64,000 bases of DNA from Siphlonurus alternatus (lineage: Eukaryota; Arthropoda; Insecta; Ephemeroptera; Siphlonuridae). The stretch is from positions 806,001 to 870,000 of the forward strand of contig OX463778.1 in assembly GCA_949825025.1 (NCBI GenBank). The letters run 5' to 3'. The notes beneath the pieces are model-generated. The model did no database searches. It worked only from the letters and a program-made list of their open reading frames with translations, and was not told the origin of the DNA. Shown here one piece after another: positions 29,190-52,979 of this stretch; position 1 is the first letter of the stretch, and each line of letters opens with the position of its first letter. The translations under genes were made by a program, and so were the position numbers.

Positions 29190-31263
29190 TTGAAATTGTT
29201 TTAACTCCTCAGAGCATGCTTTAATTTCTATACAATTTGCAATTTGAGTCTCTTATTAATATGGCAACAGAATTAAAAATTAAAATTGAGTCTGTAATAA
29301 TAGAGGTTTTTAATAAAAAATTGTTAATTAATTTATTCATGGAATTAATTAAAATTGCAATATATCTTCGTAGCATGCTTTACACTCATTGCAATTTGCA
29401 CGTTGAGTCTCTAAATCTTATGGCAACATTATAACAAAATAAAATTTAGTCTGCAATGTATTAGATTCCAACTATTTTTTTTATGATATATTTATATTGT
29501 ATACATAATTATGTAAATCATTGAAATTGCTATAACTCCTCAGAGCATGCTTTAATTTCTATACAATTTGCAATTTGAGTCTCTTATTAATATGGCAACA
29601 GAATTAAAAATTAAAATTGAGTCTGTAATAATAGAGGTTTTTGATAAAAAATTGTTAAATAATTTATTCATGGAATTAATTAAAATTGCAATATATCTTC
29701 GTAACATGCTTTACACTCATTGCAATTTGCACGTTGAGTCTATAAATCTTATGGCAACATTATAACAAAATAAAATTTAGTCTGCAATGTATTAGATTCC
29801 AACTATTTTTTTTATGATATTATATTGTATACATATATGTAAATCATTGAAATTGCTATAACTCCTCAGAGCATGCTTTAATTTCTATACAATTTGCAAT
29901 TTGAGTCTCTTATTAATATGGCAACAGAATTAAAAATTAAAATTGAGTCTGTAATAATAGAGGTTTTTAATAAAAAATTGTTAATTAATTTATTCATGGA
30001 ATTAATTAAAATTGCAATATATCTTCGTAGCATGCTTTACACTCATTGCAATTTGCACGTTGAGTCTCTAAATCTTATGGCAACATTATAACAAAATAAA
30101 ATTTAGTCTGCAATGTATTAGATTCCAACTATTTTTTTTATGATATTATATTGTATACATATATGTAAATCATTGAAATTGCTATAACTCCTCAGAGCAT
30201 GCTTTAATTTCTATACAATTTGCAATTTGAGTCTCTTATTAATATGGCAACAGAATTAAAAATTAAAATTGAGTCTGTAATAATAGAGGTTTTTAATAAA
30301 AAATTGTTAATTAATTTATTCATGGAATTAATTAAAATTGCAATATATCTTCGTAGCATGCTTTACACTCATTGCAATTTGCACGTTGAGTCTCTAAATC
30401 TTATGGCAACATTATAACAAAATAAAATTTAGTCTGCAATGTATTAGATTCCAACTATTTTTTTTATGATATTATATTGTATACATATATGTAAATCATT
30501 GAAATTGCTATAACTCCTCAGAGCATGCTTTAATTTCTATACAATTTGCAATTTGAGTCTTTTATTAATATGGCAACAGAATTAAAAATTAAAATTGAGT
30601 CTGTAATAATAGAGGTTTTTAATAAAAAATTGTTAATTAATTTATTCATGGAATTAATTAAAATTGCAATATATCTTCGTAGCATCCTTTACACTCATTG
30701 CAATTTGCACGTTGAGTCTCTAAATCTTATGGCAACATTATAACAAAATAAAATTTAGTCTGCAATGTATTAGATTCCAACTATTTTTTTTATGATATTA
30801 TATTGTATACATAATTATGTAAATCATTGAAATTGCTATAACTCCTCAGAGCATGCTTTAATTTCTATACATTTTGCAATTTGAGTCTCTTATTAATATG
30901 GCAACAGAATTAAAAATTAAAATTTAGTCTGTCATAATAGAGGTTTTTGATAAAAAATTGTTAAATAATTTATTCATGGAATTAATTAAAATTGCAATAT
31001 ATCTTCGTAACATGCTTTACACTCATTGCAATTTGCACGTTGAGTCTATAAATCTTATGGCAACATTATAACAAAATAAAATTTAGTCTGCAATGTATTA
31101 GATTCCAACTATTTTTTTTATGATATTATATTGTATACATATATGTAAATCATTGAAATTGCTATAACTCCTCAGAGCATGCTTTAATTTCTATACAATT
31201 TGCAATTTGAGTCTCTTATTAATATGGCAACAGAATTAAAAATTAAAATTGAGTCTGTAATAA
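29190..31263. repeat. Tandem 326-bp repeats, about six to seven near-identical copies
   Basis: The word ATTTGCAATTTGAGTCTCTTA recurs about every 326-331 bases, from near 29237 to 31200. Each unit is a dimer of two diverged ~160-bp monomers like those in the arms. Copies differ at only a few positions, so they were amplified or homogenised recently. The short open frames in each unit are a by-product of the repeat. Confidence 0.88.
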
Positions 31264-34200
31264 CTCAAGTAAAACAAAAATGTATGCAACTGGTATGCAT
31301 CACGTATAAATCTGGTATGGAACGGGCTAAAAATGTATGCAATACGGTTGGAACACGTATCAGCACGTATGCACAGCAAAAACGCAAAATCCTCTAGTAT
31401 GCAACAAGGTTGGACGGACTGGGTTGCAACACACTTGCACATTCTCTAGTATGCAACTAGGTTGGACGACTGGGTTGCAACACACTTGCACACCCTACTC
31501 TCGGTTGGAACTCACTTGCACACAAAAATCTCGGTTGGAACTCTCTTGTATTTTTTCTCAACTCCCTTCTAGTTTGCAACTCGTATGCAATGTGTACGTG
31601 ACCTTAAACTTCCTTCAAAAAACCGTTAAACGTATGGAAACTCGTATGCATCAATTTGAAGATTCATTCCTAGCTGTGTAAAAGATGGCTTGCCATTGGT
31701 TTAGAAGTAATGTTAAAAAAATTTCAGCTCTTTTTAAACCAATAGAATTTGTTGTTGCATACCCCAGCTGAAAATTATTACTTTATAGTTTCGTAAATAT
31801 TGTGTTAAACTTATATAATTCTTAAGTAAGTAATAAGTTTAAATTGGGACACTTAAATCTTTTGTTTCGGTTACGTAAACCTTTCGTTTCCTTTACGTAA
31901 GAATAAATCGTGTAAATCTATCGTAATCCTGACGTTAATATTACGTAAATATTTTGTTTCGGGAGATTCAGAAAATACACTGTTTTTATTGCATACATCG
32001 TGTTATTTATTCATATTTTGTAAAAAATACAAATAAAAAGTAAATTAAGCAGGGAATCTTCCAATTCTCGATAGACGAAGCTGCTCTTTGACGACATTGA
32101 CACACAGCCGTGGTCACAAACTGCAGTATTCCGGGCCAATCGCGTCTTTGCAGGCACCGCGGGACTCCTCGTGGCCTTCGCACTCTGTCTGCAGGGGCAG
32201 TAGAGATGGGGGTCCATAAGGAGCATATATAGGTGTAATCGGAGCAGGGTTTACGAACAAAAACGTACTGATATAATGTGAATCATACATGACATAGTTG
32301 TATTACTGTATGCATACTGTACAGTACGTATGTCTTTACAATCATGAACTTTTTACATATATAATGAACCTGTATCCTGTATCATATCACTGAAAGAATC
32401 ATGCATGACATAGTTCTATTACTGTATGCATATGTACTGTACAGTATGTATGTCTTTAGTCTTTACAATCATATATGCACACTCTACATAATATATATAA
32501 TGAACATGTACCTGTATCATATCACTGAAAGCCTTCCATTAATTCAAATTTTTTTAATTAATGTAATTACACTCATGAGTTCATAAATTTCAAATTTAAG
32601 TGCTTGCAAATGCTTATTCAGGCAATATTATACAGGGTCAATGAAACATGCTATATGGTACCCTATCTCTACGGTCTGGTTGAACCTGGTAAGGTGCCTG
32701 GTAACAAACTTGGCCATCTGCTGGTACAATTTAACATTATATCCGTACCAGCCTGGCTGGTAAGAAATGGTCACTCTGCATAGCCTGGCTGGTAAGATTT
32801 TACCTGGTGTGCTGGTATGGGATACCAGGTCTTACCTGGCAAGCTTAGATCAAAATTTCCCTCCCCCTCCTCCTGCCTTAAAATATGCTGTTTGCTAGTT
32901 TTTTTTAGTATCAAAAATCATTTTTTAATTTTCTATATACGAAAAAGTACAGAAAAAATAAATTTAAAATTTTTATTTGGTACTTAAATGATACACTCAA
33001 AACTTGTTTTGACTTATGCAGTGCTGACATCTGAGAGGTGGGGACGGGGTGGGGATATGCGGGTAAAATGGCGGCCACAGAAATCATATTTAGAAATAAA
33101 TTTAAGGAATGGAAGGAAACTTTTTAAAGGGACTCTTCTTGCATCTCTTCCATCCATAATACTGTAGTCTGGGATCTTTCAGTGGCTCACAGTATGCCAA
33201 TTCCTGCAGGGCACAGTACATTAAAACTTTGATTCAAAATGTTGTGGCATATATATAATCTTGATTCTGATCATTCAATTCGATCTTTGAAATAAATAAA
33301 AAAAACATGAAGGTATGCTTTTATTAAATATTTGATTTTAATTTGAATGATGAGAAACATAAAATATTCAAAATAAAAATATGTACTTACCATGCAAGGA
33401 AAATAATGAAGAGCAAGAAGAACAAACTGCTGGCATTGTGTCTGCAATGATCTGCAGTTGACTTATGGTTTTTCCTTGATTATGGGTTTCTGTGAGCACA
33501 AAAGTAAATCATTAATGCCTACACCTAAGCAGTATGATTTATTTATTACTGTTAAGATGTTTTTTTACCTCCAAAGTCACTTTATAACACAATTTTAACA
33601 GTAAAACAGGTCATTTTCACGGTTGTTGACATCTTCAATCACTTCCATATGTTTTGCTATGATGCTTCACTTTTTCACCACCAGGTGTCAGTAACTAATA
33701 AAAACGACTGAAAATTTGTATTAATTTTTAAATAAATTATTAATTAAAATAAATCAATTCATTCCATAATTAATGTGCAAAAAAATTGTTTTTTTTTTTT
33801 TTTTAGTATTTTGGTAAATTCTCATCAACAGTCGATCCACACAGTATAAAAATTAAATTGTATAATTAATCTATATTTACAGTGTATATCAATAAATTAT
33901 TTAAATAATTTATGTATAAATTATAAATATAATATAAAATATTATTATATTATAATTAATATGTTAAATTAATAATATTTAAAAAATAATAACAAATTAG
34001 TATATAGTTACAAGATCTTCTGGTAAATCATACCAGGCAATACCAGACAGTGGCTGGTATTGCCTGGTATGCCCTGGTTCGGCTTATCAGCATTTCATGA
34101 TGGCTGGTAAGAACAGGTACGGCTTACCAGCACTGCTGGTTTAGTGCTTGTAAGAGTCTACCAGCCACCTTACCAGGTTCAACCAGACCGTAGAGATAGG

Positions 34201-35942
34201 GTACTCACACTCATGAAGTTTGGCCGGGGATGCATTTCTGATCTGCCTGCTTTGTCGAGATTCTCACGATGAATGCATACTCTCAATTATCCGTGGGGTG
34301 CAGGAATTTATAAATAATCCCCATAATCCTCACGATAAGGGTGTAGCCTGTGTAGATAGAGGTCACGAAGAGAACATGATCCTAAAACAAACATCACCGG
34401 TGTCATTGACAAGTTTGACATTCACATTCAAGATAAAATAATGATTTCTGTAAGCTAAATTCATTCTTGTTGATGCTAACACTTATATTATATATGATTT
34501 TTACCTTGAATCCTGGAAACTTGCTCTAATTCTGACGAAATCTGCATAAAATAGCTGCATCGTCGAGTGTTGTTTACGAAATGGCGTCTTCCTCCCTTCC
34601 CACTCCCCCCTTCCCACACTCGCCCAACCGTCATGCGCGCGATCGAGAGTTTAAATTTTAATTTATTATTTTCTTACGTAACTCTAACGTAAAAAGTACG
34701 TAACAATTACCATAAGATTACATTTAAGATCACAGTTACGTAACTGTAACGTAAAAAGCACGTAACAATTACTTTAACATTTTATTTAAGTTCAAAGTTA
34801 CGTAACTGTAACGTAATATGAACGTAACTATAACGTGCTACACGTAAAAATCACGTATTACACGTAATTATCACGTAAAAACTACGTTATGATGATGTTG
34901 GAAACGAAAACATTTTCAGCCGGGACCCTTTAACTTTAACATTCCAAACACGAAGGCAGCAAGCTGCAAGCAAGCAGCAGAGCAGCCATGGACTCCGAGC
35001 AGAGCGGACATATTATAATGCTGTTGCTATAATATAATATTATTATAGCAAGGAATCAGGTAAACATTACAATTAATATAATTTTATAAATATACTCATT
35101 TTAACTTTTATGTATATACATAGTTTAATGCATTACAGTACAATTTATAACTGCATGCAAATTCATTTAAATTCAAACTTTAATTTTCTATTTGTCAATT
35201 TTACTATTAAAATTGATCATTATAAATATTATTAATAAAAATTACCCTGTAAAATTATAACATGGATAAATTAAATTTGATCTGATTCTCCATAATTATA
35301 AGTACTTACTATATTATACCTTTGAATGATTAATATATATAGTAATAATAAAATAGATAATGTAATCAAAGATGTATATTATGTATTTTAATTATCTTCT
35401 CTTATATGTTTTTAGTGGAGGAGCTGGAATGCATGCAGCAGCATCTAGCATATTCGAAAAAATAAAATCATCTGATGACCTGATGCTGCAAATTCCCATC
35501 CATGCAGAAAGAACTCTATAGCTGAAGGCCGGCCGGTCGCCATTATGGCAAAGTTTAGTTGCACGTGGAGAATAAATTGTAGGGGAAACAGGAAGTAGGC
35601 GGGAGGGGCGGAAATGGAGGAGGGGGCAGGGGACGCTACTATTGTGCAAACCAGTTGCAATTGAATTGCAAACCAATCCATACGAGTTTACCACGTGGCC
35701 AAGGCCCTGTAGTAAAAATGGTTGGAACACGTATGCACGTATGTAAACTGGTATGCACGTATGTAAACTCGTCTGTAACTATTCTGAAATAATGTGACGT
35801 CATCTGGTATGGATTTGTTTCAATTCCATACTTCGAACAAACCTTTTTCCATACCAGTTTTTGCCATAGCATTAACATAGGATTTCCATACCAGATTTAT
35901 ACGAGATGCATACCAGTTGCATACGTTTTCGTTTTACTTGAG
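31264..35942. mobile_element. 4.7-kb element with CTCAAGTAAAAC ends, inserted in the 326-bp array
   Basis: Left end CTCAAGTAAAACAAAAATG, right end inverse CTCAAGTAAAACGAAAACG. Similarity continues inward through TATGCAACTGGTATGCATC. The neighbouring repeat units give the unoccupied site, showing that only AA was duplicated (31262-31263 and 35943-35944). Both ends carry GTATGCAAC-rich stretches, then TTACGTAA-type words (31860-31950 and 34670-34890). No transposase was recognised; weak exon-like patches (32011-32226 minus, 34202-34440, 34988-35030 plus) remain unassigned. A second element at 32661-34201 splits it. Confidence 0.82.
32661..34201. mobile_element. 1.54-kb non-autonomous element, CCCTATCTC family, copy 1
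   Basis: Terminal repeats CCCTATCTCTACGGTCTGG and its inverse, extended by CTGGTAAG-rich subterminal sequence. TA is duplicated at the borders (32659-32660 and 34202-34203). It is nearly identical to copy 2 at 61632-63190, with small indels such as a TATATA expansion near 33250. No coding capacity seen. Confidence 0.88.
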
Positions 35943-36080
35943 AATAGAGGTTTTTAATAAAAAATTGTTAAATAATTTATTCATGGAATTAATTAAAATT
36001 GCAATATATCTTCGTAGCATGCTTTACACTCATTGCACTTTGCATGTTGTAAGGATTGTATCTATTATTCTTTTATGGCA
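35943..36080. repeat. Continuation of the 326-bp repeat after the nested insertion
   Basis: Starts AATAGAGGTTTTTAATAAAA, exactly where the unit at 31263 stops, and runs to the monomer end near 36075. Confidence 0.85.
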
Positions 36081-36084
36081 ATTA

Positions 36085-36283
36085 AACCCTTTGAATTTAT
36101 TAAAGACTGGTGGTTCGGCTGCAAGACTTGTGGTTCGTGTGCTCGCTGCGAGGCCTCGGTGAGTGGTCTGGTCGCAACGGTGACAACTGAAGTTTTTTGG
36201 GCGTGAGCCTTTGACATGAGCCGCCGTTGATGCAGATCTTGGCAACCAAAAGCCGAATTCGTGCAAAGTCCGAAATATATAAT
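36085..36283. other. G+C-rich patch of unknown origin in the loop
   Basis: About 180 bases clearly richer in G+C than the surrounding loop, open in several short frames on both strands. A donor-like GGTGAGTGG lies near 36156 after an AAAG acceptor-like site near 36103. I recognise no protein. It could be a captured host exon or another repeat. Confidence 0.25.
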
Positions 36284-36455
36284 GAGCACAACTAGTTTTG
36301 AGTATCGTCGAGTTATGAGAAGAACCCGAACAATCTAATATTTCAGCTCGATGCTCAAAAAAAACTTTGCTCAAGTCGAAATGATCAAAACCCGAAAAGA
36401 CTTTCTTTTCAGCTTTTACTCATTTCCATTTGAACAAAACTAGTTCTGTGCATTT
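36284..36455. mobile_element. Small MITE-like inverted repeat around AACTAGTTTTG
   Basis: The left word CAACTAGTTTTGAG and the right word CAAAACTAGTTCTG are imperfect inverses. A related right half lies at 50030-50165. The ends are degenerate and no target duplication was identified. From 36456 to 37006 I see only A+T-rich sequence. Confidence 0.4.
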
Positions 36456-37006
36456 TTTACACTTATTTTAAAAGTATATAATATATATAAATATACCATA
36501 ATTATTAATGACTTAATTGCTGTATGTTTATTTTATTTATAAATATCTTTTTACGGTTTTAGCTTATTGCTTATTGGTACGTTATGTAAATTGTTATGCT
36601 TTTTTTATGTTAACTATTATTTATTTATGATTATTATTGACTTTATTATATTTGCATGGTACTGTGGTTATGTAACTGTTACTGAATAAATAAGAATTTA
36701 AAGCATGAATCCTAATATTTTATTTATAATCATTTTCTTTCACATAATGGCAGTGTAAGCGGCATCGTCAAACTGAAACCAATTATTATAATTACTATAA
36801 GGGGTCATGCTTTGTATCACCTATGTAAATGATTAAACTTTATAAAGAATGAACTAATTAATCATGATTAAATAATTATGCATGTGTGAAATAGCTCTTG
36901 AAAAATTAAATATATTTTATTGGATTTTTTAAATACTTCTAGTTAATATTTTGACGGCTTATGTATTTTAATTACTGACTTATTAAGGGTAATATTAGTT
37001 TATTAG

Positions 37007-37266
37007 TTTCAAAACAATTTAACGAGCTGATTTTTTTTTTAATTAATTTTTTTAATTTTCAGCATAGGGCTTTCCCATGAAGAGACAAACTAAAAAATTA
37101 ATTAAAAAAATCGGCTCGTTTAATTGTTTTGAAATTTTTTCTATGGCTTTTAGGCACTATAATATCTGTCTCTCAATTTTTTTTTTTGAAGTTTTGTGAA
37201 TTTGCTAAGGTTTACATGTTTATAAAAGGGCAGTACGTCGAGCAGCTGTTCGGCGTTATCTCAACC
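37007..37266. mobile_element. Truncated foldback MITE, GGTAGAGATAA family
   Basis: Matches the right part of the element at 43579-43962, including the core around CAGCATAGGGCTTTCCCATG and the end TTATCTCAACC followed by TTAA (37267-37270). The left arm is cut off at about 37007. Confidence 0.6.
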
Positions 37267-37392
37267 TTAACTTAAAAATAAATTTAAAAAAATAAAAATT
37301 CGTCTTATATGCATTTGTATTGTGTTCATACACATGAACTATTAAGATATTAAAAAAAAAAAAATGCGTCTTAAAAGTGCACTTGTACGTAC

Positions 37393-37726
37393 AATGGACA
37401 ACATACATGAAAAAATTTATTGCAGAAATGAATAGAAGGTACCAAATTATGCTACTCTGAATTTTTTCAGATTTTTTTGAGTCCCATCCAGAACTATTTT
37501 TAAATAATTATTGAAAGTCCTGTGATTTCAGTTGGCACCCCTTAATCCTTAATAAAAAGGATAGAGACTGGATGCCTATTGACGCCTCCAGGGGGCGTGG
37601 CCGCACTTTCAATACTTATTTAAAAATAGTTCCGGGTCTCCAAAAAATCTGAAAAAAATCAAAGTAGCATAATTTGGTACCCTCTAATCATTTCTGCAAT
37701 AAAAAATTTTCATGTATGTTGTCCAT
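37393..37726. mobile_element. 334-bp foldback MITE with AATGGACAAC ends
   Basis: AATGGACAACATACATGAAAA at the left is mirrored by TTTTCATGTATGTTGTCCATT at the right. Inner parts are also mirrored (GGTACCAAATTATGC against GCATAATTTGGTACC). It shares internal words with 48955-49254, so the two are distant relatives. Confidence 0.7.
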
Positions 37727-37739
37727 TCACAGTATAACA

Positions 37740-38880
37740 ACAAAAAGTTGTCGTTCTGTTTAATTATGCCTTTTGTGAAGTGCGCCAACCTATATGGCTT
37801 ATTTATTTTTTTATTTTTTTTTTACGCAAATCCAGAAATAAAATGCCTTGTTATGGTCTCCTTTTTCCGAAATGATCACTTTATATAGATGTCAAAGCTT
37901 GTATCGTCAAACAATATATATTAGCCAAAACAAGTCTATAATATTAAATTAATATTATTTTCTTTGTATATATAAATATCTTATCATATTTAGCCTGTTT
38001 ATTATATAGCTGGTATTATAATGTTCAGTTCATTAACAATTTTTATTTTTGCAATTACGCATTTACGATGAATCGTTATAATAATAATAATAACAATTTT
38101 TATTCGAACATAAAGGTCGTACAAGACAACATTGATCACGTCAGAAACATAGCATACACTAAAACAACTATACAGCTAATGCAACATGAGTGCGCATTTG
38201 AAATTAATTAAAATTATATTTAAAATAACAGTGCTCGACATTAATTTAAATTAAAAATTAATTGTATGTATTAAGAGTATAACTTTAGTTTTTAACTTTT
38301 AAAAGTATCAATTGCATCACAATATTAATACAATTAATTACATGCATATCTTCGTGCTTAAAGGTATAATATAATACTGCTGTTAGCTCCATTCTGATTT
38401 GCAAAGAATTTGAATTAAAGGAACATAATTTTCATCATTACAAATCAGACAGGAGAGCCCCTCTTACCACGACAAGGTCATAGCAGCATATCAGAGGGGG
38501 GGGGGGGGGGATGGGATGGGGGGGATGGGATGGGTGGAGGAATTTTAAAGGAATCATTGATGATAGAGTTATCTTTACAGCATAGATCACGTAAATTCTT
38601 ACATATTACAGGTAACTATATAATATTACTTAAAATTCACATACATTGTAAAAAAAAAAATAATAACAATAATAATAGGACACGAATATCGTATAAATTA
38701 TTATTTATGCGTTTTAAATTTTAATAATGGATATATATATATATATAACATATTAATATTTAATAAGAAATTAAACAAACAATGTTTCAAAAAAAATTAT
38801 AATCATACTATACTATACAATTCGTTCTTATTAGCACCATATATGAATTCTTGCTGCACATAATATCAACGACTATATAC
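37740..38880. other. A+T-rich stretch, no gene
   Basis: No coding signal. A G-run of about 15 bases followed by GGGATGGGAT repeats lies at 38497-38535, and A/T microsatellites at 38650-38680 and 38735-38750. Confidence 0.5.
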
Positions 38881-38882
38881 TG

Positions 38883-39172
38883 GAGGACGGCCTATAGGAC
38901 AACTTATGAAGAACCTCGATACTCGACATTTCTCGCCAACCTTCGGGGAACTTCGCTAAATGAGCCACGTGCTCGGGCGGTTTCTTTGAAGACGTCAAAG
39001 ATTTGACAGCTTGACAGATTTGACAGATGGCTAATAAAGCGGCACCTTTGACCGCGGTATCTTTGTAGCTGACTCTATAGGCCAATCAAATGCGCTACAA
39101 AAGTCAACGTCGTGACGTCACTGGGTTAAGGAAATGTCAGCCGGTTGGCGGCAAAAAAGTTAGGCCGTCCTC
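38883..39172. mobile_element. 290-bp MITE with GAGGACGGCCTA ends
   Basis: GAGGACGGCCTA at the left is mirrored by TAGGCCGTCCTC at the right. The interior is richer in G+C than its surroundings and holds a CCAATCA word and a perfect TGACGTCA at 39113-39120. It lies about 420 bases beyond the stop codon of the transposase-OTU gene. No clear target duplication. Confidence 0.6.
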
Positions 39173-39596
39173 TTAGTAAATAGTTCTTGACATAATATAA
39201 TTATATTATATGGTTCACAAAACACGTTGAAGGTCCAAATCTATGTAAGTTCACTGTCTTATTTAGTTTAGAACGAGACTTAAGATGCAGATAAAATTTG
39301 TTGTCTTTTTCATCGGTTATTATTATTACTATTTTTTTTTCACCATAAAAATATTTTATGTTGTTTATAGCTTAGTATTCTGTTTTAATTAATAAAACTT
39401 TTCAATTTTTTTTAACACATTATCAATAATTTCATTACCTAAATAATCGGGTAAAAAAGCCATAGACTTCCCTACTATAAATATAAAACAATAATAACAA
39501 TAATGACATAATAATAAATAATTCCACATTAACTAATTACAACAAAAGTGGTATTCAATTTCAGACAGAAATTAAACAATTCAACATACACTTTCA

Positions 39597-41978
39597 CTAC
39601 GCGTCGTTCACATCAACTGGAAGTTCATTCATTAAGCTATCTCTACCTGGAATGAAATAGTAACGTGTACCAGGCACCTGGAGAATTCCAGAAAAATGTT
39701 CACCGCTTCTATAGACTCTTACGTAATTATTATTGTAATTATATCCAGCAATAATTACATGATTGTTGTGAATGAGAGGTGGTTGATTTCTATGTAAGAA
39801 ATCATGTTGAAAATCGGAATCAAGGGCAGCAGCAGTACAATTTCTGCCATATGTGAATTGCTGTGTCACGTTGTTTTTGAAGTTGTTGTAGATAATAATT
39901 TTTCTTTTCATTGCGACTGCTGTTGCTAGTTCTACTAGGGTATCTGCATAGTGGAAGTTGGCAAGAAGAGTTGGGTAACGTCTTTTTGCTGATGAATAGA
40001 GATCTGCACTGCATCCCACACTAATAAGCAACATCCGAATTGAGTTTTGGTGGTCAGCTTGAAGTAGAAGGGAATTTCCAAAATATTGTTGATATTTTAG
40101 AATTATATACATAGTGGCTACTCGAAGAATGGAAACATACTTATCCACACCATAAATATTCCATGAGCACGATCCATAAAAACAGTCACCACCTCCAAGA
40201 GTGTTCATCACTTTATAGTGATCTAAAAAGCAAGGATAAATTTGTTCATCATAATTATCGCAAACACGATTCTTTAGCAGAGTGTCATCATAGACAGCAA
40301 GAGGTTGTCTTCTTAGAGAAAGAAGCATATTTTGTACTCTATTATCATTAATATCAAAAACATTTTGAATGAATTCCAGGTCTCGATAACAGTCCACTCT
40401 CATAAGGTAGTCAAGTATGTTTTTAGCAGCCCTTTCGTTCAAATCTTCTGGTGTTATTCTAGGGACTGTGGGAAATTGAACTTGTAATGTCAGGCGAGGT
40501 GCGGGGGATGGGACGGTCGTGCGAGGCGCGCGAGGTGCGACGGTCGTGTGAGGTGCGACGGTCGTGCGAGGTGAGACGGTCGGTCGAGGTGCGACGGTCG
40601 GGCGAGGTGCGACGGTCGGTCGGGGTGCGACGGTCGGTCGAGGTGCGACGGTCGGGCGAGGTGCGACGGTCGGTCGAGGTGCGACGGTCGGTCGAGGTGC
40701 GACGGTCGGTCGAGTTGCGACGGTCGGTCGAGGTGCGACGGTCGGTCGAGGTGCGACGGTCGGGCGAGGTGCGGGGGGCGGGGCAGTCGTGCGAGGCGCG
40801 CGAGCTCGGACATTTCTGCGAGTCGCGGGACCAGGGACAATAATGCGAGTCACGGGGACAGATGCAGTAGAGGAGAGACCAGAAGTCGCAGGGAGATCAG
40901 AAGATGGTGATGTACTCTCGATTTCGGGTAGCCTCAGTCCATCCTTGCAGGGACCACTATACACTTTATTGGCACTTGCAAAAAAAGTTGCTACCTTACA
41001 TCCTGGATTCTTTATTATTCTCCTCTTCTTGGGGTTTTCTAGATCAAAAGGGACTTTGAAGAAGTACTGTCTGTACATAAACTCCGAGATGTAAAAGTCC
41101 AAACCGTCTTCCCGGTTGCACTTAACTGCATCTCTTAGAGCTCTCCAATTACGCTCTTGCGTGTTCGTATGAATATATCGATATCTTGGATGCACAAAAT
41201 TGTATTTGTGGATCACAACACCATGGCTTGCGAACCCCAACTCTTTATCAATTCCTCTGTAAGGTTTGAAACCATCCGTATATATTGTTGTGCCCTCCTC
41301 GACGTGAGCTGCTATTATTTTAAATAACGTTGCACGTCTCCGATTTGGTACTCGTACGAGGAACATTTCCCTTGTCTCTCGGCATATTCCACCTAATATC
41401 CAAAAATGCTCGGATACTAGCACTCTTCCTACATGGTACTTACAAACTGCAAGATGCGCTTCATCCAGCTCGACGATATATCCAAGACCCCCGATTTTTT
41501 TATCACTTGAAATATTTGAGATAATTATTTCACATATTGCTCTAAATTTATAGTACCAGTGTATGGCAGTTTTCTCCTCTACATTGCACTCGGTTGCAGC
41601 TTGACCAACTGGTTTTGCCTCTACAAAGAAATAAAGTAACTGTACAATTCTGCCATAAGGAATACGTGCGTGTTCAAATAAAGTATTTTCCAAAGGTGAC
41701 ACTTGATGTTGACAACGCCTATTGTGTCTGCGATCAATCACATTGCATCTAAAAATGTAGCCACACCCATTATTTGCTGAAGTGTATCCCATTTTTATAT
41801 TTCCACATTTTGTACAACCTGGACCATCATCTCTACCAGGAATAAGTCCACATACCACGAGAGCTGTTACAAGAATATCTTTTTTATCTTCGTCAAGTGG
41901 GAAATAAGTTAGAACATTTGAAGAACGAAGGTTTGGGGATATTGCTTCCCAACTTGCCTTATCAACAATATAATTCAT
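39597..41978 (-). CDS. IS1595/Merlin-type transposase fused to an OTU-like cysteine protease domain
   Basis: One uninterrupted 793-codon frame. Residues 50-105 form a zinc ribbon (C55, C58, C72/C78, C89) leading to NTLFEHARIPY. Residues 120-155 look like a helix-turn-helix. The ISXO2/IS1595 catalytic core follows, with D172 in VELDEAH, D235 in IYTDGF and E275 in NTQERNW, so the DDE triad is complete. Residues about 395-495 are a Pro/Thr/Arg-rich linker of RPTVAP repeats. The C-terminal part (about 500-793) resembles OTU proteases: GGGDCFYGS (C599) as nucleophile motif and EHFSGIL (H761) as the histidine motif. The usual first aspartate of D-x-x-C is G596 here. The transposase call is firm; the OTU call is motif-level. 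It is intact, so recently active or selected. Confidence 0.88.
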   Translation of the reverse strand: MNYIVDKASWEAISPNLRSSNVLTYFPLDEDKKDILVTALVVCGLIPGRDDGPGCTKCGNIKMGYTSANNGCGYIFRCNVIDRRHNRRCQHQVSPLENTLFEHARIPYGRIVQLLYFFVEAKPVGQAATECNVEEKTAIHWYYKFRAICEIIISNISSDKKIGGLGYIVELDEAHLAVCKYHVGRVLVSEHFWILGGICRETREMFLVRVPNRRRATLFKIIAAHVEEGTTIYTDGFKPYRGIDKELGFASHGVVIHKYNFVHPRYRYIHTNTQERNWRALRDAVKCNREDGLDFYISEFMYRQYFFKVPFDLENPKKRRIIKNPGCKVATFFASANKVYSGPCKDGLRLPEIESTSPSSDLPATSGLSSTASVPVTRIIVPGPATRRNVRARAPRTTAPPPAPRPTVAPRPTVAPRPTVATRPTVAPRPTVAPRPTVAPRPTVAPRPTVAPRPTVAPRPTVAPRPTVSPRTTVAPHTTVAPRAPRTTVPSPAPRLTLQVQFPTVPRITPEDLNERAAKNILDYLMRVDCYRDLEFIQNVFDINDNRVQNMLLSLRRQPLAVYDDTLLKNRVCDNYDEQIYPCFLDHYKVMNTLGGGDCFYGSCSWNIYGVDKYVSILRVATMYIILKYQQYFGNSLLLQADHQNSIRMLLISVGCSADLYSSAKRRYPTLLANFHYADTLVELATAVAMKRKIIIYNNFKNNVTQQFTYGRNCTAAALDSDFQHDFLHRNQPPLIHNNHVIIAGYNYNNNYVRVYRSGEHFSGILQVPGTRYYFIPGRDSLMNELPVDVNDA
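40494..40796 (-). repeat. In-frame 18-bp minisatellite encoding the RPTVAP linker
   Basis: Around eleven clean copies of an 18-base unit (plus strand GGTCGGTCGAGGTGCGAC) lie between about 40569 and 40766, with degenerate copies on both sides. The length is a multiple of three, so slippage changes the linker without breaking the frame. The strong G+C content contrasts with the rest of the gene. The repeat opens all frames, which explains the overlapping open frames here. Confidence 0.9.
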
Positions 41979-42955
<977 letters not shown>

Positions 42956-43578
42956 TACATTGTATACATTTTATATTACTACTATACCTCAGACGAAATT
43001 CACCAGTAAATTAATACATAGTCTGTTAATTTACTGCTGCAATGAAGTCCTTTTTCAGAAAACTATTTTTTATTTTAAATAATTAAATAAAGATATTATA
43101 TTACTATAAATTATTTACAATTTAATATAACAAAATTTCATGTTCCTCTTTTCTTTATATACGATTAAAATTTAATACTGGAAAAAGTTTTAAATTTTAG
43201 CTGTGTTGACGAAAATTATTCATCAAACTTGAATATCGTGTCTCTTTTTTTTTATATAGTACTCTATTTCTGGTATATGAAATAAAAAGAAACAAAAAAA
43301 AAATACTATAGGAGTGCAATTTAGTGAAATATGCATAACTTTATATATTTCAGTTTCAACTTGGCTGATTTTAAAACATATAAATTTAATATGCTTAATT
43401 CGTAATGCATAATTTTAATTTCAATGCAATGCATTTAATTGTTTTTTGTTTGTATTTCTTTCAATTAATGGATGTAATGATGTAGTACGGTCTACCATTG
43501 CCATATCATTTTGACTCGAACAGAAAATAAAAACTTCTATTTTATATCAATGTTATAAGTGCAAACTATATATATTAT

Positions 43579-43962
43579 GGTGGAGATAATGTCGGTCAGC
43601 TGTTTTTTTTTAGCTCCATTTGATTAACATGTAAACCTTAGCAAATTCACAAAAATTCCGAAATTTTTTTGAAAGGCAGATATTAGTGCCTAAAAGCCTT
43701 AGAAAAAATTTCAAAACAATTCAACGAGCTGATTTTTTTTAATTAATTTTTTTAATTTTCAGCATAGGGCTTTCCCATGGAGGGACAAACTAAAAAATTA
43801 ATTAAAAAAATCGGCTCGTTTAATTGTTTTGATTTTTTTTTATGGCTTTTAGGCACTAATATCTGCCTCTCAAAAAATTTTCAGAATTTTTGTGAATTTG
43901 CTAAGGTTTACATGTTAATCAAATGGAGCTAAAAAAAACAGCTGACTGACGTTATCTCTACC
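43579..43962. mobile_element. 384-bp foldback MITE, GGTAGAGATAA family, TTAT-flanked
   Basis: Almost the whole length is an inverted repeat. The left starts GGTGGAGATAATG, and the right read inward is GGTAGAGATAACG. CAGCTG, TTTGATTAACATGTAAACC and GGCACTAATATCTGCC-type words are mirrored. TTAT stands on both sides (43575-43578 and 43963-43966). A TTAA-like 4-bp target suggests piggyBac- or Kolobok-type mobilisation; this is an inference. Confidence 0.75.
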
Positions 43963-43966
43963 TTAT

Positions 43967-46930
43967 ATGCTTTTCGTAAATTTTGCTTTGGTACTTTTGG
44001 TAGCTCAATTGAAAGTCAGTAAATAATAATATGTATTAATGTCAACATTGAAAAACCTTGCTAATTGCTGTACGTCCGATGATAAACCTAAATTATTAAT
44101 TTTTATTTGCAGTTATTAATTGCAAAAATAAAAGATAATTCGTCACTCGTCCGCCAGTAATGAGTTATCTGCCATTTATGGCGAGGACAACAATGAATAA
44201 GAAATGTTACAGCTCATAATATATGCGCTCAACTGAAATATCAACGAAATCGTGGTGGGCAGATAGCTCATTGTTTCGGACGAGGGACGAAATGTTATTA
44301 ATATGAATAGAAAAAAAAATCATATGATTAATTTTTTGATTAATTAATTTGAATATGACTATAACATGTAGCTATATACCACAGATCTCACGATACTCTC
44401 TTCATAACATTGTATAATTATATTATGTATAATATAATGATTAAATAAAATTATCATATTTTGCCTCTTTAATTAAAAAATAATAATTAAGGTGCACCCA
44501 TCTGCAATCCTTAACAGCAATATTAAAATTATTTGAAATTTCATGAAGAACTAAGATGAAGTATATACAGCAATTCAAAATTAAACGCTCTCTTTATATT
44601 AATACGATATAGATATTACGATATTTTATTAATATTTTTATTGCTACAATTAAAAACTTAATTTTAAATATAGTCAATCGTGCATGGGAGCATAAATATT
44701 ATTATTACAATATATTTCGGAGTTTTTGGACTCTCACAAAAGATGTAACTAATGAAAACACAATTGTATATTATATATATAATATTATATTTTGTATAAA
44801 CATGTGGACACTAAGAGTGTAGCCAATCATAAAAGTGTTTCTGAAATCTGTGCGGTAAAGATACTCGGGTAAAGAATTTTATGATTTTTTCACATGCACA
44901 CAATTCTGTATCTGCCATGTATATGTAATGCTGTAACTCAGATAAATTTTAATTTGACATTGCAGAAGAAATTTAAATAACACAAAAGCTATTGAAAATT
45001 CCAATTTCGAAAATTTATTCATCTCCTAATAGACATGCCAATGAAAATGCAGATAACTGAAATATTCATTTGAAGTAATCTTCCACTATAATGTTCCGTG
45101 CCAGTAAATACACCTTTAACTTCTTGTTAAAATTCACAATATTGCATATATAGTTCACAATATCAATATGGCAATCTATTTATAATTATAAGCATACTAA
45201 TTAATTTGTTGAGGTAATTAAAATTTTAATCAATGGCAACAAAGATATTTTTTTGGCTTGTAAAATACTGCACATTTTACACGTGCAATGTTAGTGTGTG
45301 CTATTTTTTTTACATGATAATAAGGTGGTGGATATATTTATGTACTATTATGTATCCTCTCTCTAAATGTGGTTAGAAGGCCTTTATGCAGTAGCACTAT
45401 ATAGGATGTAATATACGTAGTATATGTTATATTAATATGCATTTGACAAATACATATTATAATCATCCCTTAAGAAAAATCCATCATTTTAGCATAGTAA
45501 AATTGCAATATTGCATGCAACATTAATGACAATTTGGTGCAATTAAACCACAATATTATTACACTATATAAACTTGGACACTATTTCACAATTTATTAAA
45601 TTGTAATAAATTACCATTAATTGTGAGAATTAAATATGGAAATTTATCATTTAATTAATCTTCATTTTATGGTAGATTATAAATTGTGCCATACTTATAG
45701 TGCGGTCAATAAAATTATAATAATATTATGCATATCGATAATTTCTAGCATCATAATTAAAAAATGTGTGGATTGTTCAATTTGTGCATGCCTCATCACA
45801 CTATAATATACGAAAGATATCAATAACATTATAATTTAACGGCAAACTGCTCTTGACAGAGGGCTTACTCCTGTACCTATTATAACAGTGTTAGTGCATT
45901 ATGAGCTTTATAATATGAGAAAACTTGCGAGTTATCGTGCCATGTGACATATTAAAAAGAAAAAATAACATAAAAAATTTATTATATATAAAAAAAGAAA
46001 TTTCAATTGTCTATCTAGCCATTTATATTAAGAGATGTGGGCACATGCTGAATTGATTTATAATTTATTATTGTTTTATGCTGACGAGTCTGAGATGGAG
46101 TCTGGCGTGGATTCAAAAAACAAAAATAGGGTCAATGATGCTTTTCGGGGGTTGGGAGCGACCCCAAGCCACCCCTGGATCCGCGCCTCCACGCCTGGCT
46201 GGCGTATTATTTAGCAGACGATAGTATATATTTAAGTACTTAAATTTCATGTACAGTATATAAACAATTAAAAAATAAACAATTCTTTATATAGCTTTGT
46301 ATTTGTTGTGTGTGTTATAGGATTAGGATCTATGTCTAAAATAAAATTCATTTTCTGCATGTGGAATTTTATAGAAAATAATGTGCAAAATGTGTAGTCC
46401 CTCATAATGTGACATTTTGTAAAACACTCTAGTTTAATAAGTAAGTGTAGCAAATATTTGCCTGTATCTAAGGAATCATTACATGCATGTAAAATATTGT
46501 GTCATCTTTTGCCACAAAATTAAATGTATCAATGTTATTCCCCGAACACGAGTTTTCTAAAATCTTGGGGTTTATTGTGTACAAATATTTGGTAGTATAT
46601 AATGTTAAAATATAGGTGTGTGTTTCTTTCAATAAAAAAAAAAATTAAAAATATATCTAATTTTATTAAACAACATGCAGCACAAAAAAATAAACATATT
46701 ATTAGTAAAGTAAATTATTTTAACAGTAAGAAAATAATAAAGTTATTCAGTAACTATTATCTCAATTGATTGATTTCATATAAAAATAATATTTGTTATT
46801 AAAATTTATTACATTAAATATCATTAAATAATAAATATATCTTTAAAAGTCCACATGATAATCAAATAAATAACTACTTGAAATATATATGTAATTTATG
46901 TTCATCAACATGCTAAGTAATAAAGTAATG
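43967..46930. other. A+T-rich loop sequence, no gene
   Basis: No coding exon, RNA gene or mirrored element was recognised in about 3 kb. The only notable item is a fragment of the CAGGCGCGG MITE family at 46150-46188 (ending CTGGATCCGCGCCT). Confidence 0.5.
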
Positions 46931-46936
46931 TACTGC

Positions 46937-47400
46937 TATAGTATATAATATAATATAATATAATATAATATAATATAATATAATATAATATAATATAATA
47001 TAATATAATATAATATAATATAATATAATATAATATAATATAATATAATATAATATAATGTAATGTAATGTAATGTAATGTAATGTAATGTAATGTAATG
47101 TAATGTAATGTAATGTAATGTAATGTAATGTAATGTAATGTAATGTAATGTAATGTAATGTAATGTAATGTAATGTAATGTAATATAATATAATATAATA
47201 TAATATAATATAATATAATATAATATAATATAATATAATATAATATAATATAATATAATATAATATAATATAATATAATATAATATAATATAATATAATA
47301 TAATATAATATAATATAATATAATATAATATAATATAATATAATATAATATAATATAATATAATATAATATAATATAATATATAATATTATATTATATTA
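46937..47400. repeat. Pentanucleotide array: (TAATA)n, (TAATG)n, (TAATA)n blocks
   Basis: Uninterrupted ATAAT repeats to about 47058, then a pure TAATG block to about 47181, then TAATA again to about 47380, ending in imperfect TATAAT and TA repeats. Confidence 0.97.
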
Positions 47401-47705
47401 TATTATATATATATATATATAAAATAATTTCATATAGTAATTCTGTTTTCATGCATGCAAAATTAATAAACATTGGTAATAGCATTTATGAGAGTTATGT
47501 CTGACATAGAAATTACTTATTCATTAAAACTCAATAATTCATAAAATAATTTCCATTATAAAAAAAATATCATGCACAATGATGCTCGATCACCAACTTG
47601 ACAGTGCTAATTGATAAATTGCAATCATAAATTGCCTGATATAAATATATGTATCTAACGTGAACAAGTTTATGCATCATGGTATATTTTTGTAGTGTTG
47701 TTTAA

Positions 47706-48350
47706 AGTAGAGTGAGCGATTGCATTTTTTTAATATTTTATTTTCTAAAAATAGTTTAAGGTACCCTCTATTGAGAAATGAAAACCAAAAAATTCCATCT
47801 CAAATAGTTTCACCACAAAAAATTACCAAAGTTGGTGTTTCGGAGGCCTTTAACGTGCAGCCTTATGGAACATAAAACCGCGTTTTACTGCAACATTTTC
47901 TGAACTATGCTACCATTTAAAAAATACCTACGTAATCTATGATAAATTCTTTAATGGATTTTTAAATAAAAAAATTTTTTTACGGAGCCGTTTTTTCGGA
48001 AAAAAATCTTTAAGTTTTTGCGGGTTAATTCCCATAAGGATTTTCATGATTTTTTTCCAAGAAAACGACCCCGTAAAAAAATTTTTTTATTTGAAAATTC
48101 ATTAAAGAATTCATCATAGATTACGTAAGTATTTTTTAAATGGTACATAGTTCAGAAAAAGTTGGAGTAAAACGCGGTTTTATGTTCCATAAGGCTGCAC
48201 GTTAAAGGCCTCCGAAACACCAACTTTGGGAATTTTTTGTGGTGAAACTATTTGAGATGGAATTTTTTGGTTTTCATTTCTCAATAGAGGGCAGCTTAAA
48301 CTATTTTTAAAAAATAAAATATTAAAAAAAATGAACTCGCTCACTCTACT
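47706..48350. mobile_element. 645-bp foldback MITE with AGTAGAGTGAGCG ends and TTAA target
   Basis: AGTAGAGTGAGCGA at the left is mirrored by TCGCTCACTCTACT at the right, with TTAA on both sides (47702-47705 and 48351-48354). Mirroring continues through GGTGTTTCGGAGGCCTTTAA to a centre near 48025. Exact TTAA duplication suits piggyBac or Kolobok groups. Confidence 0.85.
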
Positions 48351-48395
48351 TTAATTGTTTTACGAATTATTGCTCCTTGATGTTTTTCAACTTAA

Positions 48396-48738
48396 GGTAC
48401 AGATAATACGGATAATCTGACCCAATGCTAAAAAAATCCATGAAAATTATGAAAAAAAAATTAAATGTTCTCCTCTACGTCCCCTATACAGTAAAATATC
48501 AGGTATACAAAAACGAGCTATATAGACTAGTTTTCTAGTAAATAAATTTAACATTGAGAAATGGAACTTCCATGTAAAATTAGTCAACTTTAAAAATTAA
48601 TAACTCGAAAACTAGATCGTTTTTATATACCTGATATTTTACCTACTGATAGGGGATGAACATTTTAATTTTTTTTTCATAATTTTCATGAAAGGGATTT
48701 TTTTAGCATTGGGCCAGCTGATCCGTATTATCTCTACC
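48396..48738. mobile_element. 343-bp foldback MITE with GGTAGAGATAATACGG ends and TTAA target
   Basis: GGTACAGATAATACGGAT at the left is mirrored by ATCCGTATTATCTCTACC at the right, with TTAA at 48392-48395 and 48739-48742. The first ten bases match the end of the 43579-43962 element, so both probably used the same transposase. Confidence 0.85.
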
Positions 48739-48954
48739 TTAATAATCTCTAAAATTAATAACATATATTTTTTCATTGAGAACGAAGAGAATTTCCGTTC
48801 ATGCGGACATTATAATAAGTTATAATATGTATAAGTCCTGATTCAATGCAGAGAGAGAGAGAAAAAAAAAAGATAAACACATTAATTTTTTTATGCCCTT
48901 TTCAAACAAAATTATGACAATTACTATATATATATATATATATAATGGAGTGTG

Positions 48955-49254
48955 GACCTCAATTTTTTTATTGCAAAAATAGATAGAGCGTGCAAAATTA
49001 TGCCACCCTGAATTTGTTCAAATTTTTTAGAGCCCGGGAACTATTTTTAAAAAAATATTGAAAGTCCTTTTTGTGACGTCACGCGGCGGCAAGTCCTATC
49101 TTTTTCTTAAGGAACGGCGCCTCGTGACGTCACAAAAATAACTTTCAATAATTTCTTAATAATATATTTACCGGGCTCTATAAAATCTGAAAAAAATCAG
49201 GATAGCACAATTTTGCACCTTCTATCCATTTCTGCAATAAAAAAAATTGAGGTC
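48955..49254. mobile_element. 300-bp foldback MITE with GACCTCAATTTTTTTATTGC ends
   Basis: GACCTCAATTTTTTTATTGC at the left is mirrored at the right. The centre holds two perfect TGACGTCA palindromes (49074-49081 and 49125-49132) placed symmetrically. It shares GAACTATTTTTAAA and ATTGAAAGTCC with 37393-37726. No clear target duplication. Confidence 0.75.
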
Positions 49255-49624
49255 GATAATCTACTAATTATCGCTTTCATAATGCTTTCAATAATTAAAA
49301 TAATATATTATCTAATAAAGTTTGTTTATTTATTTAAATAAATAATTTATTTATTTATTTATTCCACCTATGTAAATTAATACATAATATATATTATATA
49401 TGCATTATTTTATTGTAAAAAAAATTAAAAGAATAATAAAACAAACAAAAGAAAGTAAAAATAAAAATGGACAAAATATGCATGTTTGAAAATTTTTAGG
49501 GTGAGGACCAATACTGTAGCACCAAAGGGGCACCATGACACAAAAGTGGCATTGATCCATAAAATATACATATATATTTTAAGGTTATAGAGGCCTAGTC
49601 ATACAAAATATTATTACATGTTCA

Positions 49625-49850
49625 ATAGATGTCTCTTTAAACAAAAAGAGAAAGAAGAAGGTGGCTGTAATTTAACATCGGCAGGTAAGTTATTCCACTG
49701 ACAATGAGTGCATGGTGCAACGGTATACAAACTATACAAAGCCGTTTCGATTCGATAAAGTAAAGTCCGTACTTTGTGGGAGGGATAATTCTAGCCACAC
49801 CAAATTGCGTCCACGAATTTCACGACCACTCACAACAATATATAATGAAT
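49625..49850 (-). pseudogene. Non-LTR retrotransposon reverse transcriptase, C-terminal fragment
   Basis: The minus strand reads ARIIPPTKYGLYFIESKRL and, after a frame change, WNNLPADVKLQPPSSFSF, then KRHLLNM and a stop. This is the typical end of jockey/CR1-type LINE polymerases (a W-N-x-L-P motif followed by a short K/R-rich helix). Only the last ~70 residues remain and the frame is broken. Confidence 0.7.
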
Positions 49851-50354
49851 ACTTACATCCATCTCGTTATTTTAGAGATTTTACGTAAATTGATTAAAAA
49901 AATAGAACCCCAAAAATTGCATATAATTAAAACTAACGATCAAACATTTTAAATTGCAACTTATTTTTGCAAAAAAAAAAAATAATAACAATAAATAAAT
50001 AAAATAAGTAAAAGTAAGTATTAAGCTCAAAACCCGAAATAATCAATTATTTCGAGTTTTGAGCATATATAACTACCTCAAATCGAATTGAGCAAAAACC
50101 GACGGAGACTTTTTTAAATCGTGTTTTGCGCGTTTTCATTTGAGCAAAACTAGTTCTGCGCATCAATTAAGCATTTTTCAAAGACATTAATTTATTTAGG
50201 ACTTTTTAATTTGAGGATCAGAAGATCTCTATGCAGGCATGGACATATGGAGCTGTCCCTAAATAAGTACTAAAATATTTCCAGGGCTAAAATTCAGAGT
50301 TATTTAAAGTTTTGCAAAGAATGCCCTGACTGCCAATATAAATATTTTTTTAAA

Positions 50355-51130
50355 TACAGGGTGTCCCAAAGATCTTTAGGTTTTTCAAACCCAAATTACG
50401 AACAAACAAACAAAATTAATACTGACTTCATATACATCAAATTAAAGCTCTGAATTTAACATTTTCAAAAATGTCAACAGAAAAAAAAATTAGAATGGTG
50501 ATTTTTTTTTACCCGTTAGAAAGCAAAATGAGCACTTTTTTTTCAAAATCACGACTGCACCTGCACTTAAAAATTGTTCACTTCAATTCTCATGCTTGAT
50601 AATTTTTTTTTTCAAAGAAAATGCAACAATGCTTCTCTAAATGGGCACCATTGGTGGCTCAGCAAACATTCAGTCCCCCCAAAAGCTCACGCCACACATT
50701 GCGCAACATGACAGGCATGGTGGACTGGATCGTGGTGGTGATGCGCTGCTTTAGCTCCAGCACGTCTCACACTGGAATTGTGAATACGGTGCCTTCCACT
50801 GCAAGTTCCTTCCACCTTCCACATGATAGCCCCGTAGGAAGAATTCTGAAGGAGTACAGTGAGGGGACCTGGGGACCCATGGTGTGGAGTCTTAAAAGCC
50901 TATACAGAGGCCTTGGCCCCAAAGCGACGCAAGAAACAGTGCAAAAAGCTCCCATTTTGGCCATTTTGCCTTCTGACAGGTAAAAACTAAAAATCACTTT
51001 TCAGATTTTTTTTTCTGTTCACATTTTTGAAAATGTTAAATTCAGAGCTTTAATTTTATGTATAAAAAGTGAACATTAAAACACGCCAAACGGTGGTTAT
51101 TTAGCTTTGAAAAATCTAAAGAAAACGTGA
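50355..51130 (-). pseudogene. Degenerate mariner-like (IS630/Tc1) element with transposase remnant
   Basis: The left end TACAGGGTGTCCCAAAG and ~150 bases of imperfect inverted repeat (AAATTAAAGCTCTGAATTTA and its inverse near 51035) bracket a broken minus-strand gene. Recognisable pieces are PRSPHCTPSEFFLRGYHV, then ELKQRITTTIQSTMPVML, VWREL and, after a stop, ATNGAHL, the standard C-terminal end of this transposase group. Several stops and frame changes make it dead. It appears to sit inside another small inverted repeat (about 50290-50340 against 51225-51270). Confidence 0.75.
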
Positions 51131-51379
51131 GTTCAAATCTCTATGTATTTTACTTATTAACTTTATAGGCTTAACAACTTATAGGCCTTTACCTTAATTT
51201 TTTTCCAGCAGACGAGTCGATTCCAGCTGGCAGTCTTTGCAAAACTTTAAATAACTCTGAATTGTAGCCTAATTTAGAAATATTGACTATATATTTCATT
51301 GCATTAATTAATTTAAAAATATAGTGCCATGTCCATATAAGCTTAATAAAAGCCAATTTTAATTCTTTTAAATATGATA

Positions 51380-51495
51380 CAGGCGCGGATCCAGGGGGGG
51401 GGGGCTGGGGGAGCTGCCCCGAAATTTTGGATTTAACATGGGCAATATAGGCATTTTCCGGCCCCACTCCAAATTTTTTTCTGGATCCGCGCCTG
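51380..51495. mobile_element. 116-bp hAT-like MITE, CAGGCGCGGATCCAG family
   Basis: Starts CAGGCGCGGATCCAG and ends CTGGATCCGCGCCTG. The 8-bp repeat ATATGATA flanks it exactly (51372-51379 and 51496-51503). The body is a G-run followed by the inverse-complement-like GGGGGAGCTGCCCC. This is the reference copy for fragments at 16511, 46150 and 58782. Confidence 0.92.
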
Positions 51496-51500
51496 ATATG

Positions 51501-51582
<82 letters not shown>

Positions 51583-51669
51583 CTAGTGTGTGAGTTATTA
51601 TATATTATATATAAACTTATATTAAAGTAAAATTATATATACTAATTGAAGATGTAATTATAAATTAAA

Positions 51670-52163
51670 GTTTAAACTTTTCCGGTCTGGTGTATGGGGC
51701 ATGAAAGTCCCAAGATTTGAAACTAAGTTATAATACTTATAATTGAGATATATATATATCTTGATGACATGGAGAAATCCGAGAAATTAATTTATCCATG
51801 CTTGAAAAACTCAACGAAATTTCCCAATGCCTTGACTTAATTCTACAGTTTAAACACTGGTGCGAAAGAGATTTATTACATCGAGTTCATAATTTGTCCG
51901 CTAGAGACCACAAGCGGTCAGAAAAAAAAATCCCGCTTCGAAGCTTGAAACACAAATAAAATTAAATAGCCAAAAAAATATTCAACAAAATTTCTTCGAT
52001 GTATATATTATATGTATTTATGATTCCAGTTATATGTACTTTTACCTTCACATTAAAGTCATTAAAATCTGTAAAATTTAACTTTTGGTTTTGTCAAATT
52101 TACATTTTTTTTTTAAATTTTATTAAAAAAAGCTGGCTGGGATTGATCGAATAACGTACGTGC

Positions 52164-52256
<93 letters not shown>

Positions 52257-52440
52257 GTGTGTGTGTGTGTTGTGTGCAATGTGTTCAAGAGATTCCAGAA
52301 CAGAGAAAAGTTTTAAAACTTAATTAGCGAGTTTTTCAGTTTTTATGATTATAATCTAAGGTATACTCTTACATATAGTGAAATAAAATTCAGTCTTATA
52401 TGAGCAGTTTCTTACATTATTATATTAATTTTATAATTAA
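51670..52440. repeat. Right-arm inner unique segment, mirror of 27830-28570
   Basis: Carries CCGGTCTGGTG, CGCTAGAGACCACAAGCGG and CCCGCTTCGAAGCTTGAAAC, which are inverses of left-arm words. Two (TA)n runs joined by TATTTA occupy 52165-52255. Confidence 0.8.
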
Positions 52441-52908: not shown

Positions 52909-52946
<38 letters not shown>

Positions 52947-52979
52947 GGAACTCTATCAATACAGACTCAGTTTTATTTT

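Follow-up and report, generated by a model that had tools for sequence, protein, structure and literature searches.

Why should a cut-and-paste transposase carry, on the same polypeptide chain, a domain that appears to be related to ubiquitin-removing proteases, and does such a chain represent a working part of a mobile element? That question is raised by a reading frame within a stretch of 64,000 nucleotides from Siphlonurus alternatus (contig OX463778.1; the whole of this stretch is termed the window), in which a preliminary description had reported an uninterrupted frame of 793 residues joining a transposase to a C-terminal domain. The frame was confirmed on the minus strand, reading from its ATG at the 41978 end down to 39597, and the residues D172, D235, E275, C599 and H761 were each found in the translation at the position originally given. 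The frame and its parts, from the N-terminus to the C-terminus, are as follows.

39597..41978, minus strand: transposase-OTU fusion frame, 793 amino acids and a stop codon (open reading frame listing and residue check)
41712..41816, minus strand: probable zinc ribbon, C55, C58, C78 and C89 (invariant cysteines in alignment)
41067..41666, minus strand: IS1595-type DDE transposase domain, residues 105-304, with D172, D235 and E275 (Pfam, NCBIfam and alignment)
40452..40868, minus strand: linker rich in P, T, A and R, residues 371-509 (translation and tandem repeats)
40242..40451, minus strand: residues 510-579, an extension ahead of the OTU core that can be aligned with the protein P0001 (alignment)
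39600..40241, minus strand: OTU-like domain, residues 580-793 (profiles, BLASTP, hhalign and PDB matches)
40182-40184, minus strand: codon of C599 (residue check)
39696-39698, minus strand: codon of H761 (residue check)

The reading frame is open from 33 bases upstream of its ATG. The chance of encountering 793 codons free of stops is approximately 10^-27 at the composition of the window, and approximately 10^-17 if the composition of the frame itself is used and the repetitive linker is excluded; its length is not a product of chance (approximately 10^-17 or less). The linker, in which an 18-bp unit is repeated 13.5 times (40531-40773), is also open in other frames, and for that reason its openness is weak evidence for the frame. 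Within the mobile element described below no frame comes near the fusion in length: those others that run from stop to stop over at least 75 amino acids extend to a maximum of 180 amino acids, and the longest of them lie within simple repeats or across the linker.

The original assignment of the N-terminal half to the IS1595/Merlin group of DDE transposases was borne out by a match to the Pfam family DDE_Tnp_IS1595 (E 1.3e-8; 35.4 bits, above the cut-off of 27) and by an invariant DDE triad; the NCBIfam model transpos_IS1595 gave an E-value of 1.1e-15, with 58.1 bits that lie under its cut-off of 75. In a three-sequence alignment of the window frame, an IS1595 transposase from a bacterial plasmid and a frame from another locus of the same genome (L015), not only D172, D235 and E275, but also the cysteines C55, C58, C78 and C89, are invariant. 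The zinc ribbon that had been proposed for this region is probable from those four cysteines, though they are accompanied by no Pfam zinc-ribbon match to the fusion protein at E <= 10; at that threshold Pfam returned DDE_Tnp_IS1595, one low-complexity match under its cut-off and nothing else, and an integrase domain was not found. The transposase half is matched at approximately 25% identity by 33 plasmid records, and the ten plasmid matches listed are all annotated as IS1595 family transposase. No relatives were found in viral contigs or in phages, nor, with the transposase as the query, in prokaryote genome contigs. A search with the full-length protein gave five matches, each of which covers 12-15% of the query and lies on a protein with other Pfam domains, and these are tentatively read as matches to the linker.

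The frame lies within a much larger transposon of 32.7 kb that had gone unnoticed in the preliminary description, and whose components can be listed as follows.

25421..58076, unstranded: Merlin-type transposon of 32,656 bp, including approximately 4.7 kb of nested insertions (terminal inverted repeats, or TIRs; target-site duplication, or TSD; inverted arrays)
25413..25420, unstranded: left 8-bp TSD, AAAAAATC (flank comparison)
58077..58084, unstranded: right 8-bp TSD, AAAAAATC (flank comparison)
25421..25758, plus strand: left outer TIR, starting 5'-GGTATGACTGTAGG (92.9% identity to the right arm)
57759..58076, minus strand: right outer TIR, starting 5'-GGTAAGACTGTAGG on the minus strand (pairs with the left arm)
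25752..27349, plus strand: left subterminal repeats, in the opposite orientation to those on the right (compared with 52879-55510, at most 85.5% identity)
29187..31263, plus strand: left tandem array of approximately 160/326-bp units (tandem-repeat search)
52879..55540, minus strand: right tandem arrays of approximately 160/330-bp units, inverted relative to the left (tandem-repeat search and self-comparison)
31264..35942, unstranded: nested transposon within the left array, foreign to the original element (99.4-99.6% identity to a stretch at the locus L010)

The two TIR arms (318-338 bp in length, starting GGTA, with the arrays lying inward of them) align over 338 columns, of which 314 are identical, 4 are substitutions and 20 are gaps, and the target-site duplication is perfect at 8 bp. 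Because the arms are nearly identical (4 substitutions in 318 aligned columns) and the duplication is perfect, the insertion is probably young. The true ends of the element are located approximately 14 and 16 kb from the reading frame. A search for closer ends, between 37300 and 43700, gave AT-repeat matches only, and the repeats that flank the frame (37007-37270 and 43604-43938) were rejected as ends, as they look like short palindromic elements: that at 43604-43938 is a palindromic short element inside the Merlin element, with 112-nt arms that are 93% complementary, and that at 37007-37270 is a diverged relative of it.

The nested transposon in the left array is itself interrupted by an insertion (31765-34924), and is missing at the same junction in a copy on contig C11. 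With up to 3 mismatches allowed, the TIR of the window family was found at nine places in the genome (a control gave none), three of which fall in a 52-kb stretch of C11 (64.667-64.719 Mb); the arrays are present in that stretch, and neither the transposase nor the OTU domain was found there by tblastn at E <= 0.01. Several other repeats and genes were observed in and around the element. A repeat within the nested insertion (32661-34201) recurs outside the right end of the element (61632-63190) at 97.8% identity, with 43-nt inverted ends. Beside the Merlin element, 131-bp tandem arrays at 18604-19504 and 20122-20758 are mutually inverted, with approximately 76-88% identity, in a foldback-like arrangement. 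Finally, a minus-strand frame at 12756-13148, residues 26-67 of which match the end of the kinase domains of ULK1 and ULK2 (PDB, E 1.6e-9), is a predicted exon of an ATG1/ULK-like host gene.

The OTU assignment of the C-terminal part, when examined with family profiles, failed as a direct match, with no Pfam OTU match to the window domain at E <= 10, and succeeded by way of a bridging protein, P0001, which itself matches Pfam OTU above cut-off. A profile (A1) that combined the window domain with four relatives from the genome recovered P0001 at an E-value of 4.8e-3, as the sole match at E <= 1 among 5821 candidates; BLASTP of the window domain against P0001 gave 4e-9 (as a single comparison), hhalign gave a probability of 96.4, and the alignment of the two spans most of the domain. 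When P0001 was included in the profile, a PDB search returned 12 distinct sequences at E <= 10, each of them weak singly and the best of them OTUD1 (E 0.021), with OTU domains in 11 of the 12 rows. Nine of these matches are fragments of viral L polymerases, near-duplicates of one another, which we take to be OTU domains; one match carries the name ubiquitin thioesterase, and one other is unrelated. With P0001 omitted, the PDB profile search gave a single match, OTUD5, at an E-value of 0.2, and a protein search with the OTU domain as a single sequence gave nothing at E <= 0.001. The homology of the C-terminal domain to OTU proteases hinges on the one bridging protein together with the weak PDB matches, and on those grounds appears to be well supported. 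AlphaFold2 models of residues 510-793 and 580-793, computed with P0001 as the sole added sequence, had mean pLDDT values of 30.9 and 29.7, respectively, and values of approximately 30 would argue for neither the presence nor the absence of an OTU fold.

A protein search of the genome, in which 57 of 105 candidates were scored, gave ten matches: the fusion itself, seven with the OTU domain only (at six loci, one of which is split) and two with the transposase only. No second full fusion was found among the 57 candidates scored. Four of the six OTU-only copies are nearly identical to one another, and share 43-44% identity with the window OTU domain; of the remaining two, one contains several stops and the other is split. 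The surroundings of these copies are 96.8-98.9% alike across their main aligned core, and inverted 160-bp arrays were found on both sides of five of the six loci, and on one side of the sixth. All six loci sit inside pairs of TIRs that belong to a second family of elements (family 2), the start of which, GGTACGACAGGAG, agrees with that of the window family, GGTATGACTGTAG, at 10 of the first 13 bases.

The 23-base end of family 2 is present in 54 exact copies in the genome (a control gave none), which by manual count form 24 convergent pairs, spaced 9.3-29.6 kb apart, and leave six ends unpaired; the pairs are located on contigs C1-C4, C6-C9 and C11. Of the 24 pairs, 14 were tested by script: a perfect 8-bp TSD was found at 8 of these 14, and the other six comprised one pair with 1 mismatch, two with 2 mismatches and three without a duplication; in a control, none of 182 non-partner pairs matched, and lengths of 6, 7, 9 and 10 gave none. 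A fifteenth pair, on C9, has no TSD, such that 8 of 15 pairs are perfect overall; among the OTU-bearing pairs examined in this manner, that on C1 has the duplication and that on C9 does not. Family 2 consists of recently spread, large elements of 9.3-29.6 kb, whose own transposase was not found in the stretches searched: tblastn detected none beside the OTU-only copies in stretches of 9.9 kb, which are shorter than some of the elements. Across the two families, Merlin-type ends delimit elements that measure roughly 9-33 kb and whose terminal regions are of the array type.

The two transposase-only places differ in their state of preservation. One of them (L015, 4704-5675) contains an IS1595-like frame of 324 amino acids (Pfam, E 1.3e-15) in which the cysteine ribbon and the DDE residues are kept, and which is, to judge from its sequence, a second IS1595-derived gene of this genome; the other (L016) is an IS1595-like fragment. 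No OTU domain was found near either, within a fetched stretch of 9.9 kb. Pfam OTU domains were recognised at four further genomic places, and neither the fusion nor any OTU-only locus is among these. Because L015 and L016 are without an OTU domain in those stretches, and the Pfam-recognised OTU genes lie elsewhere, the OTU pairing tracks the large elements, as far as seen.

A comparison of the window OTU domain with that of the family-2 locus L010 over 205 codons gave a pN of 0.38 and a pS of 0.82, the latter being saturated, and demonstrates at the codon level that purifying selection acted on the domain while the two element families diverged; because that divergence took place under purifying selection, the OTU domain was a working part of the lineage. 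The four family-2 copies, in six comparisons, differ by as many as 9 nonsynonymous changes and by no synonymous ones, as expected of an unneeded passenger, and these copies are now relics.

We are highly confident that the window contains a giant, probably young, cut-and-paste transposon of the Merlin type (IS1595-related), and that its OTU-like domain represents an inherited functional module of the lineage. In the mechanism that we propose for it: (i) the zinc ribbon would bind the TIRs or the arrays; (ii) the DDE domain would cut the element and re-insert it with an 8-bp stagger; (iii) the OTU domain, tethered via the flexible linker, would act either on the transposase or on proteins present where transposition takes place, stripping them of ubiquitin or of a ubiquitin-like tag; and (iv) removal of that tag would shield the complex from degradation, host repair or silencing. 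To guard the transposase or its complex against turnover, repair or silencing that depends on ubiquitin would be the most likely role of the OTU domain; that the domain indeed carries out a deubiquitination step is a possibility on which doubt weighs slightly the heavier. The explanation taken as a whole, comprising a Merlin-type transposase gene, an inherited OTU module and the proposed ubiquitin-removing role, appears to us to be evenly poised between right and wrong.

C599 and H761 stand in columns that do not vary among the window domain, P0001 and the four family-2 copies aligned with them. The third residue of OTU enzymes, which is acidic or an amide, is usually found at the position three residues before the cysteine or two residues after the histidine. 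In the window those positions are occupied by Gly596 and Ser763, and the third residue of an active OTU deubiquitinase is present at neither; the position before the cysteine is a glycine in both element families, and an aspartate (within a DGNC motif) in P0001. Because the usual acidic residue is absent, catalysis is uncertain. The domain is labelled here as OTU-like and is not classed as an active deubiquitinase.

These same substitutions, shared as they are at the glycine by both families, favour a pseudo-protease that has kept the OTU fold, and that binds ubiquitin or other partners so as to steer assembly of the complex or choice of target without cutting; vertnin, described as an inactive OTU homologue, provides a precedent (PMC10318531). 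The retention of the cysteine and histidine across all of the aligned copies argues against it, as does the description, in the same source, of OTU-like enzymes for which a Cys-His dyad suffices. We consider this alternative to be unlikely, while deserving of serious attention, and past purifying selection does not separate it from an active protease. A processing protease, in which the OTU domain cuts the fusion itself and releases the transposase in the manner of viral polyprotein OTU-like proteases, would be in keeping with the long repetitive linker between the two halves, and with the polyprotein peptidase activity described for viral OTU relatives (PMC10318531); however, Ginger1 has its OTU domain at the same C-terminal place, and its description (PMC2836005) reports no such processing, leaving this possibility distinctly improbable.

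It is likewise improbable that the frame is a domesticated fusion of host and transposase that no longer mobilises anything. The fusion is the single full one found in the genome (with 57 of 105 candidates scored), and it is missing from the further copies bearing these TIRs that lie in the C11 stretch retrieved, as domestication would have it; the nearly identical TIRs and perfect TSD nevertheless point to a young insertion, and the OTU domain is present in a second element family too. Accidental read-through from a transposase into an unrelated, adjacent OTU gene, to which the multi-frame openness of the 18-bp-repeat linker lends some room, is very improbable, as OTU relatives recur within a second family with 5'-GG ends and 8-bp TSDs, and the four Pfam-recognised OTU genes of the genome lie elsewhere, none of them at these loci.

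The transposon with an inherited OTU module may be compared with several known systems. Merlin elements are marked by TIRs that begin 5'-GG and range from 24 to 462 bp, and by TSDs of 8 or 9 bp, and families with tandem repeats, one of them of 163 bp, have been reported (PMC8101967). The window element resembles them in its DDE_Tnp_IS1595 domain with an intact DDE triad, its 5'-GG TIRs and its 8-bp TSD, and differs from them in its C-terminal OTU-like domain, its probable N-terminal zinc ribbon and its size of 32.7 kb with inverted subterminal arrays. According to the same survey, nearly all described Merlins are without a Zn_Tnp_IS1595 domain, with some exceptions, and other additional domains, WD40 for instance, are known from Merlin proteins; the words OTU and protease are absent from its main text (PMC8101967). 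No report of a Merlin-OTU pairing was found in the open-licence literature.

The OTU domain of vertnin (VRTN) may be closer kin to that of the window. As described in PMC10318531 and PMC3024977, vertnin combines an OTU-related domain with a transposase-like helix-turn-helix motif; unlike the window protein, its catalytic site is missing, and a DDE domain is unmentioned in those descriptions. Helitrons and Helentrons share with the window element the presence of a ubiquitin-protease domain on a mobile-element protein, in the form of OTU and tegument-type deubiquitinase domains (PMC9741609), whereas they possess a rolling-circle Rep-helicase and no DDE transposase, and the activity described in that source was tested, and shown, for the tegument-type domain and not for the OTU. 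The transposases of Ginger1 have an OTU or Ulp1 domain at the C-terminus, for which a role in transposition has been suggested (PMC2836005), and are thus alike in having a C-terminal OTU domain on the same chain as the transposase; the core of Ginger1 is Gypsy-integrase-like, and that of the window protein IS1595-like.

Because Ginger1 (PMC2836005) and Helitrons (PMC9741609) already carry such domains, the premise of rarity in the preliminary description, that transposases normally lack a deubiquitinase-like domain, was too strong, while its reading of an intact fusion with an OTU-homologous domain stands. A transposase and a protease on one chain would provide a convenient test object, in which mutants of either half could be compared in a single assay. 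We tentatively suggest, with doubt prevailing, that a recently active lineage of giant Merlin elements gained a ubiquitin protease tail independently of Ginger1 and Helitrons, and that this tail shields the transposition complex from host control that depends on ubiquitin. If that is true, the case for deubiquitination as something that mobile DNA needs time and again would be strengthened, and the Merlin-type elements would represent a further, separate class of DNA transposons equipped with a ubiquitin-protease domain, Ginger1 and the Helitrons being the earlier ones.
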